Origin: a virus
Length of the DNA: 45,037 nt
Virus record (IMG/VR): IMGVR_UViG_3300028800_000020
Coordinates: 1 to 45,037 of that record
Direction: 5' to 3' (one strand)
The translations under genes and the position numbers were made by a program. Each line of letters opens with the position of its first letter. The stretch's first letter is position 1. Under the pieces are notes generated by a model. The model searched no databases. It saw only the letters and a list, made by a program, of their open reading frames with translations, and was not told where the DNA came from. Shown here in pieces: positions 5,044 through 22,118 of this stretch.

Positions 5044-5066
5044 TAGTGAATGATTCTCATTTGCAG
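5044..5066. promoter_or_regulatory. Operator-like 23-mer, degenerate copy
   Basis: Matches the reverse complement of the 5196-5218 palindrome at 19 of 23 positions, with the central AATGATTCTCATT exact. Together with 5196-5218 and 10796-10818 it defines a common 23-bp site with outer TTGnGAA and inner TGA..TCA half-sites. Confidence 0.5.
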
Positions 5067-5130: not shown

Positions 5131-5155
5131 ATTCGCAATTGCGAATCACTCGCAA
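5131..5155. promoter_or_regulatory. Half-site cluster (16-bp perfect palindrome plus third arm)
   Basis: ATTCGCAATTGCGAAT (5131-5146) is a perfect palindrome made of two back-to-back TTGCGAAT half-sites. A third, imperfect half-site (TCACTCGCAA) ends at 5155. The half-site is the same as in the 5196-5218 operator. Confidence 0.55.
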
Positions 5156-5195: not shown

Positions 5196-5218
5196 TTGCG
5201 AATGAGAATCATTCGCAA
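5196..5218. promoter_or_regulatory. Operator: perfect 10-bp inverted repeat, Fur-box-like
   Basis: TTGCGAATGA, 3-bp spacer GAA, TCATTCGCAA: a perfect palindrome of 23 bp. The inner 19 bases match the classical 19-bp Fur consensus at 14 positions by my count. A phage or host dimeric repressor is the likely ligand; its identity is not shown by the sequence. Confidence 0.65.
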
Positions 5219-5399: not shown

Positions 5400-5996
5400 A
5401 TGCCCCAAAAAGACACCCCCATCCACGGCGCCCTGCTAATTCCGAAGGAATATAAACTCGGCCCGGCGATGTCGAAGCTGACCGAGCGCCAGCGGGCGTT
5501 TGTGGTGGCGCTCCTCGACTTCGGTGGCATCAACCCGAACAAAGCCGCGAGGATGGCGGGGTACTCCGTGGCCGATGGCGGCGCCGGTTTAGCCGTAACC
5601 GCTCACCGCCTGGCGCACGACGAAAAAATCCAGGACGCAATTCAGGAAGAAGCCGGCCGGCGTCTGAGAACCGGCTCGATTATGGCCGTGAAGACCTTGC
5701 TGGAGATTGCGGACAATCCGGCCGCGGAGCACCGCGACAGGCTCAAAGCTGTGGAGATGATCTTGAATCGAACCGGCCTTCACGCGATCAGCGAAAAGAA
5801 CGTCACCGTCACCCATGTCGATCAAACCAGCGACGAGATGATTAAGCGCATCGCGCTCCTCGCCAGGAACCAAGGGCTCGATCCGGTGAAATTGCTCGGG
5901 AATGCGGGTGTCGTGGTTGACGCTGACTTCAAGGAAGTGGTGGAAACGCCGGAACCAGTCGAGCGCGACCCGAACGATTTAAGTGATTTGCTGTGA
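5400..5996 (+). CDS. terS: Terminase small subunit
   Basis: Recognises phage DNA and hands it to the large subunit for packaging. The N-terminal region has the terminase-small-subunit helix-turn-helix pattern KLTERQRAFVVALLDFGGINPNKAARMAGYS (residues 25-56). It is followed by a helical oligomerisation region (RLKAVEMILNRTGL) and an acidic tail (EPVERDPNDLSDLL) of the kind that contacts TerL. The start at 5400 has no ribosome-binding site but sits exactly where the promoter at 5365-5392 would start transcription. An alternative in-frame ATG at 5352 has AAAGGGGC 10 bases upstream and would give 214 aa; I cannot exclude it. The stop overlaps the TerL start (GTGA). Confidence 0.85.
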   Translation: MPQKDTPIHGALLIPKEYKLGPAMSKLTERQRAFVVALLDFGGINPNKAARMAGYSVADGGAGLAVTAHRLAHDEKIQDAIQEEAGRRLRTGSIMAVKTLLEIADNPAAEHRDRLKAVEMILNRTGLHAISEKNVTVTHVDQTSDEMIKRIALLARNQGLDPVKLLGNAGVVVDADFKEVVETPEPVERDPNDLSDLL

Positions 5997-7435
5997 CCGA
6001 GAATAACAAACTTAAAGAATTGCTGGAAACGCTCGAAGCGATCGAACAGCGACGGAAGTTCCGCAAGCTCGACTTCTACCAGCCTTACCCCAAGCAGGAA
6101 GAGTTCCACGCTCTCGGCGCTCGTTGCAGGGAACGCTTGCTGATGGCCGGCAACCAGCAGGGTAAAACTTATTCCGGCGCCGCGGAAGTCGCGATTCACA
6201 TGACGGGAGAATACCCGGAGTGGTGGGAGGGCCGGAGATTTACGAAGCCTGTGAAGTTTTGGGTCGCCGGGGAAACCTCGGCGCTGGTCCGCGATCAGCC
6301 TCAAGCTTTGCTCTGCGGGACGCCGGGTGTGGTTGACGACGCAGGTACAGGGCTGGTGCCGAAAGTATCGTTAAAAGATGTTTCTCTCGCTCGCGGTGTC
6401 ACTGATGCGTTCGACACGATCCAAGTAATTCATAAGACCGACGGCATCGAGGACGGTATATCGACTGCCGTGTTCAAGTCCTACGAGCAAGGCCGGCAGA
6501 AATTTCAGTCCGCAACCCTTGATGGGCTGTGGCTCGACGAAGAACCCGACGAGGAAATCTACCAGGAGTGCCTGGCGCGTATCACCGCGACGGATGGATT
6601 GCTGTTCATGACCTTCACTCCGCTGAAGGGCCGGAGCAAAGTCGTCATCAGATTCATGGACGAGGCGTCCGAGGACCGTGGCATTGTCCACATGGACATC
6701 GACGACGCCAAGCACATCAAACCAGAAGACCGTGCCAAGATCATCGAAGGCTATCTACCTCATCAACGCGAAGCCAGAGCGCACGGCGTTCCTCTTCTCG
6801 GTTCGGGCGTGATCTTCACGATGCCGGAAACTAGCGTCAAGGAAAATGCGATCGAGAATGTTCCTATCTACTGGCGGAAGATTTGGGGTATCGACTTCGG
6901 CATCGGCCATCCTTTCGCAGCCGCTCTGCTTTTGTGGGATGTTGACAACGATGTCATTCATGTCCATCACACAGTGAGGATGGCTGATGTGTTCCCGATC
7001 AACCACGCCGCGGCGATGAAACCGATCGGCGCTGCGGTTCCCGTTGCGTGGCCTCAAGACGGTACGGCGCGCGAGGCAGCCGGCGGAACGCTCGCTTCGC
7101 TCTACTCCAAAGAAGGCCTGTTGACTTTGCCCAGCCACGCGACCTGGCCGCAAGGTGGGTATTCCACCGAAGCCGGCGTCGAGGAGATGCGGGAGCGGGA
7201 ACAGAACGGCAAGCTCAAATATGCCGCGCATCTCACCGATCTCTTCGAGGAACGCCGCTTTTACCACAGGAAAGACGGCGAGATCGTGAAGATCAAGGAC
7301 GATATATTATCGGCCATAAGGATCGGTATCATGATGAAACGCTTTGCAAAACCGGTGGTCTTAGGCGGCAAACGCCAGAAACGCCAGGGTAAGCTCCTCG
7401 CAACGGGGCTTGACTTCAATGTCTTCGGGGAGTAA
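5993..7435 (+). CDS. terL: Terminase large subunit (ATPase-nuclease)
   Basis: DNA-packaging motor and headful/cos nuclease. ATPase domain: Walker A GNQQGKT (residues 53-59), Walker B LWLDEE with D182/E183, and coupling motif TFTPLKGRS near 208-216. Nuclease domain: first acidic residue D301 in GIDFGIGHP, probable second D356 (WPQDG), and D436/D437 in KIKDDILSAIRIG. The length of 480 aa is typical of podovirus TerL. It begins with GTG overlapping the terS stop (GTGA), so the two subunits are coupled. An initiator-type tRNA gene starts 8 bases after its stop codon, within the same transcription unit. Confidence 0.93.
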   Translation: MTENNKLKELLETLEAIEQRRKFRKLDFYQPYPKQEEFHALGARCRERLLMAGNQQGKTYSGAAEVAIHMTGEYPEWWEGRRFTKPVKFWVAGETSALVRDQPQALLCGTPGVVDDAGTGLVPKVSLKDVSLARGVTDAFDTIQVIHKTDGIEDGISTAVFKSYEQGRQKFQSATLDGLWLDEEPDEEIYQECLARITATDGLLFMTFTPLKGRSKVVIRFMDEASEDRGIVHMDIDDAKHIKPEDRAKIIEGYLPHQREARAHGVPLLGSGVIFTMPETSVKENAIENVPIYWRKIWGIDFGIGHPFAAALLLWDVDNDVIHVHHTVRMADVFPINHAAAMKPIGAAVPVAWPQDGTAREAAGGTLASLYSKEGLLTLPSHATWPQGGYSTEAGVEEMREREQNGKLKYAAHLTDLFEERRFYHRKDGEIVKIKDDILSAIRIGIMMKRFAKPVVLGGKRQKRQGKLLATGLDFNVFGE

Positions 7436-7443
7436 TGTGGGGG

Positions 7444-7520
7444 AGCGGGGTGGAGCAGCCCGGTAGCTTGCCAGGCTCATACCTTGGAGGTCGGGGGTTC
7501 GAATCCCCCTCCCGCAACCA
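7444..7520 (+). tRNA. Initiator-type tRNA-Met (CAT)
   Basis: A full 77-nt cloverleaf with encoded CCA, derived from bacterial tRNA-fMet. Acceptor AGCGGGG/TCCCGCA has an unpaired A1.A72, the initiator hallmark. The D-stem GAGC/GCTT has A11-U24, also initiator-specific, with a G10.U25 wobble. The anticodon loop CTCATAC reads AUG. Anticodon stem CCAGG/CTTGG replaces the usual three G-C pairs with A29-U41, G30.U40 and G31-C39. T-arm GGGGG-TTCGAAT-CCCCC is perfect. It lies 8 bp after terL and 21 bp before the next gene in the late transcript, so it must be cut from mRNA. Confidence 0.93.
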
Positions 7521-10783: not shown

Positions 10784-10812
10784 TTGACAGGTGAATTGAG
10801 AACGATTATCAT
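10784..10812 (+). promoter_or_regulatory. Capsid gene promoter
   Basis: Consensus -35 TTGACA (10784-10789), 17-bp spacer, -10 TATCAT (10807-10812). It lies in a 140-bp gap before the major capsid gene, leaving a 5' leader of about 95 nt. A 23-bp palindrome covers the second half of the spacer and the whole -10. Confidence 0.8.
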
Positions 10813-10818
10813 TCTCAA
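10796..10818. promoter_or_regulatory. Fur-box-like operator over the capsid promoter
   Basis: Palindrome with outer arms TTGAGAA (10796-10802) and TTCTCAA (10812-10818) and a near-symmetric centre (CGATTATCA), 23 bp. It matches the hub operator 5196-5218 at 18 of 23 positions and the 19-bp Fur consensus at about 15-16. Its position over the -10 means a bound protein should block polymerase. Confidence 0.7.
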
Positions 10819-10914
10819 GACTGCCATACTCGCATCGAACGCGACGGCACGGATGAGTTAATCGGCCCCCGAATGGACACGGCCAAGGTAAGTCAACCTT
10901 TCGGGAGTTAAAAG

Positions 10915-11847
10915 ATGACCGGTTCCTACGATCCAGGCCTTATTCCGCTTTATACGACCCAATTCTCGACGAATGTGGAACTCTTGCTTCAGCAGAAGGG
11001 TTCTAAGCTCCGCGGCCGCGTCCGTGAGGGTATGCATGTCGGCAAGATGGCGTCGCCCATCAACCAGATCGGTACGCTCGCGCTCAAGGCGCCGGCCGGT
11101 CGTTTCGCTCCCCTTGGCCACCAGGATGCCGCATATGATCGGCGCTGGGTGTTCCCGCAGGAAGGCGAACTTCCGCAGTTGGTCGATTCGTTCGACGAAT
11201 TGCAGACCGTAGTTGACCCGAAGTCGGGCCTTGTCGAGACCGCTGTGAATGCAGTCGGTCGCGCTTGGGACGACACGCTCATCAGTGCGTCCACCGGCAC
11301 CGCTACGCTCGGCCAGGATGCTTCGAGCCTCACGACCGAATCCTTCGACACTTCCAAGTTCCAGATCGCCAGCACCTTCGGTTCTGCGTCGGCCTCGGGC
11401 TTGACTGTTGCGAAGATCATCGAAACCAAGCGCGTCTTCGAGAAGTATCATAACGATCTCGAAATGGACCGCCCGACGTTGGTGATTGGTTCGCAGCAAC
11501 ACAGTGACTTGCTCAACCAAGTCCAGGTTGTCTCGACCGAGTTCAACGAACGCCCGGTTATGGTGGACGGTGTTGTCCGCCAGTTCCTCGGCTTCGACAT
11601 CGTGATCTCCGAACGTCTCCCGCAGACGACCGTTGGTTCCGTCCGTGGTGTGCTCGCCTTCGTGAAGACCGGCATGTACCTCGGTGTCTGGAAAGACATG
11701 ACGAACCGCATCGCAATTCGTGAAGACCTGTCAGGCACGCCTTGGCAGATTCTCACCAGCACGATGTACGGTGCAACCCGCACGCAGCCCGGCAAGGTCC
11801 AGCAAATCCTTTGCGCGGATACGTCAGGCGCCGACATCAACCCGTAA
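10915..11847 (+). CDS. Major capsid protein
   Basis: 310 aa, the main shell protein. Recognised by position after scaffold, by its own strong promoter and by stretches typical of the podovirus capsid family of this type: VELLLQQKGSKLRGRV, then PAGRFAPLGHQDAAYDRRWVFP (residues 60-81), and a C-terminal KTGMYLGVWKDMTNRIAIREDL. The HK97-type fold is presumed from the family, not seen. GGGAG precedes the ATG. The gene uses the C-ending codons favoured by the neighbouring virion genes, consistent with high expression. Confidence 0.88.
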   Translation: MTGSYDPGLIPLYTTQFSTNVELLLQQKGSKLRGRVREGMHVGKMASPINQIGTLALKAPAGRFAPLGHQDAAYDRRWVFPQEGELPQLVDSFDELQTVVDPKSGLVETAVNAVGRAWDDTLISASTGTATLGQDASSLTTESFDTSKFQIASTFGSASASGLTVAKIIETKRVFEKYHNDLEMDRPTLVIGSQQHSDLLNQVQVVSTEFNERPVMVDGVVRQFLGFDIVISERLPQTTVGSVRGVLAFVKTGMYLGVWKDMTNRIAIREDLSGTPWQILTSTMYGATRTQPGKVQQILCADTSGADINP

Positions 11848-20843: not shown

Positions 20844-22118
20844 ATGTCATTAGGCGATCTAGGCTCCCTCGTAACCGCTGGCGGCTCGGCGATCCAAGAC
20901 CTGTTTCAAGGTGAAGGCGCTTCCGCGCAAGCGAGTTCGTTCACTGGCGCCGCTACGCTGGCCGAACAGAATGCGAAGCTCACAGCGGCGTCAACCCGCA
21001 TCCAGGAAACCCAAACCGCCCGCCAAGTTTACCAGACCATCGGCACGCAGGAAGCTGACGTTGCCGGCGCTGGGTTTACAGAGAGCGGATCGGCTCTCGA
21101 TCTTCTTCGCTCCAGCGCGCAGCAAGGATCGCTTGCTAAGTCACTCGTCAATATCGAAGGCGCTATCAGTGAGAACAGTTACGCCGCGCAAGCTGGCGCC
21201 TACAAAGGCTTGGCCACGGCGTATAACGAAGCTGCTACGGGAGACAAGATTTCCGCAATTGGTTCAATCGGCGGCGCGCTATTGAAGAACGTCGATCTCG
21301 CGTCCAAGGGACAAACGGTTGTTAAAGGCATTGACTATGTGAGTGGTCTCTTCTCTTCGGCGCCCGAAGTCGGTACTCAATTCAGCGGGGCTGCTGCGGC
21401 AACCGAAGCTGCGAGTACCGAATCTTTCCTAGCACCTGGTGTGGTACAGAGTAGTTTGCTCGAACCGACTGGTTTGCTTTCCACAACCGATGCTGCCGTA
21501 TCGAGTGGTGCCGATCTAAGCGCGGCCTTCGCAGCTTCCGACGTTGGTGTCGATACATCCGAAGTCGCTATCGGCACTAGTGAAACGGCTGCGTCAACCG
21601 GCATTGGTGATGCAATTACTGGCATTGCTGGCGACATTGCTTCGGGTATTGGTGATGCTGCTTCGGCAGTCGGCGGGTTTGTTGCTGATGCTGCCGCAGA
21701 AGTCGCGGCGTCGGCGGCTGAGATTGCTGCGGGTATCGGAGATGTTCTCGCTTCGATTGGCGAGGCCCTGGCTTTTGTTCTTTCCGTCATTTGTACCGCG
21801 TACTATAAGCGCGGGATGATAACCCGCTCTGTTTGGCACGGCGCTCAGTTATATGGGCGTGATGTCGCCCCGCGTCATGTTTATGAAGCATACCTTCTTT
21901 GGGGACGCCCGATTGCCTTTCTTATTGACAAGTCGGCGTTTGCTGCTAAAGTATTTGCTCCTATCTTTATTCCTTGGGCTCACGAACTGGCGGTCTTGGC
22001 GGGTGAGAAGACCGCAAAGTCAACTCGGTGGGGCCGCACAGTGTTCCGCGTGACTTATGCTTTCTCCGACATCTTAGGCCGTGTCATGCAATTACGGAGG
22101 CTCTATGCTCACACCTGA
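20844..22118 (+). CDS. Internal virion protein (gp14-like, 424 aa)
   Basis: First of three genes after the nozzle that by position and composition correspond to the ejected core proteins of T7-like podoviruses. The N-terminus is helical (AATLAEQNAKLTAASTRIQETQTARQVYQTIGTQEADVAGAGFTESGSAL). The middle (residues about 170-310) is very Ala/Gly-rich with hydrophobic patches, as expected for membrane passage. The C-terminal 105 residues form a distinct domain (CTAYYKRGMITRSVWHGAQLYGRD...). GAGGATG precedes the ATG. Only the family-level role (DNA ejection conduit) is inferred. Confidence 0.7.
   Translation: MSLGDLGSLVTAGGSAIQDLFQGEGASAQASSFTGAATLAEQNAKLTAASTRIQETQTARQVYQTIGTQEADVAGAGFTESGSALDLLRSSAQQGSLAKSLVNIEGAISENSYAAQAGAYKGLATAYNEAATGDKISAIGSIGGALLKNVDLASKGQTVVKGIDYVSGLFSSAPEVGTQFSGAAAATEAASTESFLAPGVVQSSLLEPTGLLSTTDAAVSSGADLSAAFAASDVGVDTSEVAIGTSETAASTGIGDAITGIAGDIASGIGDAASAVGGFVADAAAEVAASAAEIAAGIGDVLASIGEALAFVLSVICTAYYKRGMITRSVWHGAQLYGRDVAPRHVYEAYLLWGRPIAFLIDKSAFAAKVFAPIFIPWAHELAVLAGEKTAKSTRWGRTVFRVTYAFSDILGRVMQLRRLYAHT

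Follow-up and report, generated by a model that had tools for sequence, protein, structure and literature searches.

Our analysis of a soil-phage virus record, whose 45,037 bases in full we call the window, shows that the promoter of the major capsid gene carries an operator of the Fur-box class over its -10 element, and that two further sites of this class stand in a hub ahead of the terminase genes. The phage encodes no recognised Fur protein of its own, and palindromes of the same class recur at the terminase regions of other phages. We give a probability of roughly 60% to the model that all three sites are operators for host Fur or for a near relative from its family, which would repress the capsid promoter until low iron or titration relieves the repression.

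A Fur-box-class operator covers the -10 element of the capsid promoter

Direct reading of the plus strand places a sigma-70-type promoter (TTGACA-17-TATCAT) at 10784-10812, with TTGACA at 10784-10789, a 17-bp spacer and TATCAT at 10807-10812. A TTGACA-type promoter is found at the same place in most relatives. Positions 10796-10818 form a 23-bp palindrome, TTGAGAACGATTATCATTCTCAA, in which 10 of 11 positions pair. The palindrome covers the -10 element, which is the promoter overlap expected of a Fur box, and extends to the expected start point, the classic place for a repressor to bind. The ATG start codon of the major capsid protein gene (10915-11847, plus strand; phrog_3437 major head protein, E 1e-42) lies 3' of both elements. 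The initial annotation had described a consensus promoter before the capsid gene with its -10 inside a 23-bp palindrome, and its coordinates and sequences are correct.

Both hub sites are intergenic and precede the gene for the terminase small subunit, TerS (5400-5996, plus strand, start codon uncertain; phrog_51, E 2.6e-13), which is followed by the gene for the large subunit, TerL (5993-7435, plus strand; phrog_2, E 1.8e-31). The stronger site, TTGCGAATGAGAATCATTCGCAA at 5196-5218, had been called a perfect palindrome. It is indeed a palindrome, but with 10 of 11 positions paired it is nearly rather than strictly perfect. The weaker site at 5044-5066 is weakly palindromic (6 of 11 pairs), and its reported resemblance to the stronger one holds, as it has 19 of 23 bases in common with the reverse complement of 5196-5218. 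We detected no consensus promoter at either hub site. A palindrome at 5131-5146, ATTCGCAATTGCGAAT, presents the same half-sites in everted order when compared by eye and may be an accessory site.

The window as a whole is a phage record that ends in a 127-bp direct repeat. PHROG and Pfam assign terminase small and large subunits, a head-tail adaptor, the major head protein, a family A polymerase, an exonuclease and a cell wall hydrolase. Among the window ORFs scanned, no integrase, partition or repressor gene was recognised, in agreement with the earlier remark that no phage repressor gene is obvious. Among named phages, the capsid has its relatives in HTVC010P-like pelagiphages, and also in environmental records, at less than 60% identity. 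The first 25 kb has no near DNA match among named phage records, and a host search via a capsid relative in bacterial genomes returned only two distant MAG contigs. A tRNA-Met (CAU) gene is present at 7444-7520, between TerL and the portal region, and a leftward ORF (566-1408) contains a long Ala-Ser-Asp/Arg repeat (SARSAADSADSA) and has a weak tail-fibre match.

The window sites match Fur boxes at bacterial iron genes

Scored against the 21-bp overlapping Fur consensus, the genome's three top matches are 10796-10818 (18 of 21), 5196-5218 (16 of 21) and 5044-5066 (15 of 21), and all three are intergenic. On the 19-letter scale the same sites score 16, 14 and 14 of 19, and they have the form of the overlapping 7-1-7 palindrome of 19-21 bp. 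The same consensus gives at best 14 in 27 related phage contigs, except for one non-palindromic 16-of-21 match in L003 that we attribute to chance.

Sequences nearly identical to the window sites are found in bacteria. With up to three mismatches allowed, the stronger hub site has 15 matches in 349 Pseudomonadota genomes, versus one for the reversed control, and the capsid site matches six distinct places in 249 Pseudomonadota genomes, versus none for the control. Four of these six places adjoin iron genes, which Pfam identifies as FUR plus FTR1 (twice; L225, L226), BFD plus bacterioferritin (L223) and HemS (L222). Several of the hub-site look-alikes likewise adjoin genes for FeoB (L219), FTR1 (L214), a TonB receptor (L215) or ApbE-DUF2271 (L209), and a ZnuA-type binding protein (L211) is a further neighbour. 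The remaining look-alikes lie inside ORFs or beside genes without a known iron role. Because several of the look-alikes adjoin bacterial iron genes and the controls give almost no matches, we assign the window sites to the Fur-box class. The same sequence is thus present at iron-regulated bacterial genes, and the original description of the sites as Fur-box-like is well supported.

No FUR family protein is encoded in the window or in 23 relatives, whereas the same search was positive in 14 of 14 control genomes. The initial annotation had proposed a host protein of the Fur, Irr or RirA type as the binder. Judged by the sequences, a Fur-type protein is the better guess, and neither RirA nor Irr gains support here.

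A model for repression of the capsid promoter by host Fur

We infer that host Fur would bind these sites, and that repression, titration and a response to iron would occur there. Iron-loaded Fur dimers on 10796-10818 would block the capsid -10 and keep capsid transcription low, and the hub sites would recruit the same protein beside the terminase operon. Release could then take either of two routes. In the first, cell iron drops. In the second, replication multiplies the sites, of which each genome carries three, until free Fur is outnumbered. It is known from the FURTA assay that multicopy Fur boxes titrate Fur and thereby relieve repression, although FURTA is a laboratory plasmid assay, whereas what we propose is a natural consequence of phage replication. 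The capsid promoter would in this way act as a late switch gated by both iron and copy number. One point against the model is that a phage with no detectable integrase would apparently pay a high price if Fur closed so strong a capsid promoter whenever iron is plentiful, unless titration lifts the block.

Related phages carry other operators at the capsid promoter

The main rival to host Fur is a phage-encoded regulator of an unrecognised family with a Fur-like operator. Each lineage would have its own regulator and operator, and the likeness to Fur boxes would be convergent. We consider this explanation unlikely, though some features of the relatives speak for it. None of the relatives examined has a Fur box at its capsid promoter, not even the closest one (L002, capsid 84%). 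Their promoter is usually TTGACA-type and often bears a different inverted repeat, as lineage-specific operators would lead one to expect: 14 of 54 non-redundant capsid promoters contain an inverted repeat scoring at least 7, whereas 60 shuffles averaged 2.2 such promoters and never gave more than 9.

Conservation in relatives had been proposed as a check on the sites. The sequence at the capsid promoter is not conserved, but palindromes are over-represented in that slot and the hub of one relative does contain a Fur box. In this relative (G434/L313; 49% identical to the window in TerL, 51% in portal and 50% in capsid), the near-perfect TGCGAATGATAATCATTCTCA matches the Fur box at 18 of 21 positions and lies about 315 bp 5' of terS, with no second box. 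Because other palindromes are over-represented in the same slot of the relatives, control of the capsid promoter seems to be a trait of the family for which different operators can be exchanged, and in the window this slot holds a Fur box.

The rival explanation also draws on G013, G014 and G016, which share a different operator, CGCAATAWTATTGCG, repeated at both the capsid promoter and the terminase region, and in G014 and G016 in a hub cluster as well. These contigs hold 5 to 10 such sites each, versus 0.5 to 1.75 expected. That one regulator ties the hub to the capsid promoter, as was first suggested, fits these relatives, which carry their operator at both regions. The individual places of CGCAATAWTATTGCG in the three phages (L100, L087-L089, L099) are the hub, after TerL, before portal and the capsid promoter, though not all of them in each phage. 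A search of bacteria for a host regulon of this second operator class, GCGCAATNWNATTGCGC, gave eight sites in 200 genomes and one in the control. By eye, G014 also has a small helix-turn-helix-like ORF at 20898-21320.

Several observations argue against a phage regulator. No regulator gene was recognised among the annotated window ORFs, and a search for a gene common to the CGCAAT phages only, as the regulator, produced no convincing candidate. In addition, convergence does not predict that the window sites should match Fur boxes at iron genes, and the Fur-box class recurs in unrelated phages, as described below.

Other palindromes at the capsid promoter show no clear recurrence elsewhere in their own contigs (G025, G029, G033, L002, L003, L005 and G007). 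Long inverted repeats with arms of 10-13 bp flank the capsid -10 in L002 (5333-5373), L003 (8491-8531), L005 (3627-3657) and L010 (6130-6162), and these do not recur elsewhere in their contigs either.

Downstream of the promoter, a pattern search located a conserved element, GGCCCCCG-N-GGACACGGCC, at 10864-10884 on the plus strand, between the promoter and the capsid start codon. The element, in the form GGCCCCCG-N-GGAYAMGGCC, is present in 75 of 84 family capsid leaders and is tandem in some family members (relatives include L008, L012, L109 and L129). Paired changes are visible by eye (GACC/GGTC and AGCC/GGCT), and the element has no Rfam match. It is probably a structured RNA.

Fur-box palindromes recur near the terminase genes of unrelated phages

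At least 118 IMG/VR stretches contain a palindrome of the class TGMGAAYGAKWMTCRTTCKCA, into which both strong window sites (10796-10818 and 5196-5218) also fall, compared to none for the reversed pattern. Since the pattern itself selected these loci, the evidence lies in their extra sites and not in the first ones. Among the matches listed, more than one exact copy is present at 14 of 118 loci. Allowing one or two mismatches adds 75 sites in the 1.03 Mb of the listed loci, versus 3 in 1.35 Mb taken from other viral loci. Ninety proteins flanking the viral sites include matches to terminase subunits, endonuclease VII, polynucleotide kinase, gp88 and TPR proteins beside TerL. The identified neighbours are mainly phage genes, and no iron-uptake family was found among the ninety.

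A phrog_2 terminase is present in 29 of the 50 contigs searched. With one site counted per contig, the box lies 5' of TerL in 24 of these 29 (random placement predicts 15.3, p 1.5e-5) and at most 2.5 kb upstream of it in 14 (4.6 expected, p 1e-5); both p values are optimistic, as the null is uniform placement, not matched for intergenic or promoter position, and some contigs are mutually related. Clustering of 25 TerL proteins, one of them from the window, gives 18 groups at 70% identity and 7 at 30%. We tentatively suggest, as a possibility that we would put below even odds, that many unrelated phages independently took up small Fur-box regulons at terminase and capsid promoters, in which host Fur would serve as an iron sensor and as a titration-based, replication-coupled late timer.

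The number and placement of these boxes also bear on whether they regulate phage genes at all. They could instead be decoys that only soak up host Fur during replication, which would raise iron uptake or TonB receptors and leave the overlap with the capsid promoter incidental. Several copies per phage genome, many of them in hub-like intergenic DNA with no clear promoters, are consistent with this idea, as is the titration seen in FURTA. However, a decoy need not cover a -10 element, nor prefer the region 5' of terminase genes, and we regard this explanation as improbable. More doubtful still is that the sites are packaging or replication elements (pac, cos or an origin) and merely resemble Fur boxes. 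Many contigs do have them clustered near terS or TerL, but the box-to-TerL distance spans 0.2 to 9 kb, the same sequences stand at bacterial fur, bfd/bfr, hemS and feoB, and the capsid site falls exactly on the -10. Chance palindromes are equally hard to credit: a single 16-of-19 match does arise in 1 of 50 shuffles, but the window has three related sites, all intergenic and one exactly on the capsid -10, a set that 27 related contigs lack, and it has two 23-mers in which 10 or more of the 11 positions pair, compared to 0.47 expected per genome in Markov (dinucleotide) shuffles.

Relation to known iron-dependent control of phage genes

Control by host Fur, our preferred model, has partial precedents. 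The bacterial Fur boxes at fur, bfd/bfr, hemS, feoB and FTR1 belong to the same 21-bp palindromic class as the window sites. They control iron genes, whereas here the target would be a viral capsid gene, on phage DNA that lacks a Fur of its own. Fur controls the stx1 promoter in lambdoid phages, where a Fur box covers the -10 within a phage genome, as at the capsid promoter of the window. In that case, however, the gene is toxin cargo and not a virion gene.

A host iron-dependent repressor also acts on phage or prophage genes in the case of DtxR, which controls the phage-borne diphtheria tox gene (PMC524172) and has targets inside Corynebacterium glutamicum prophages (PMC12327846). DtxR belongs to a protein family other than Fur, and its targets there are the cargo toxin and mostly hypothetical prophage genes, unlike the case proposed here, which concerns the capsid promoter and terminase region of a phage with no detectable integrase.

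Host iron regulators are known to act on phage-borne toxins, whereas Fur control of virion and packaging genes appears to be unreported in the open-access literature searched, where looking for Fur boxes together with phage late, terminase or prophage genes turned up no account of Fur acting on virion genes. Taken together, these observations suggest that late gene expression in some phages may be coupled to the iron state of the host or to the phage's own copy number. If the model is true, late expression in phages would be set directly by how much iron soil and sea supply, and the many phages that carry Fur boxes would be ready test cases for a link between iron and phage production.
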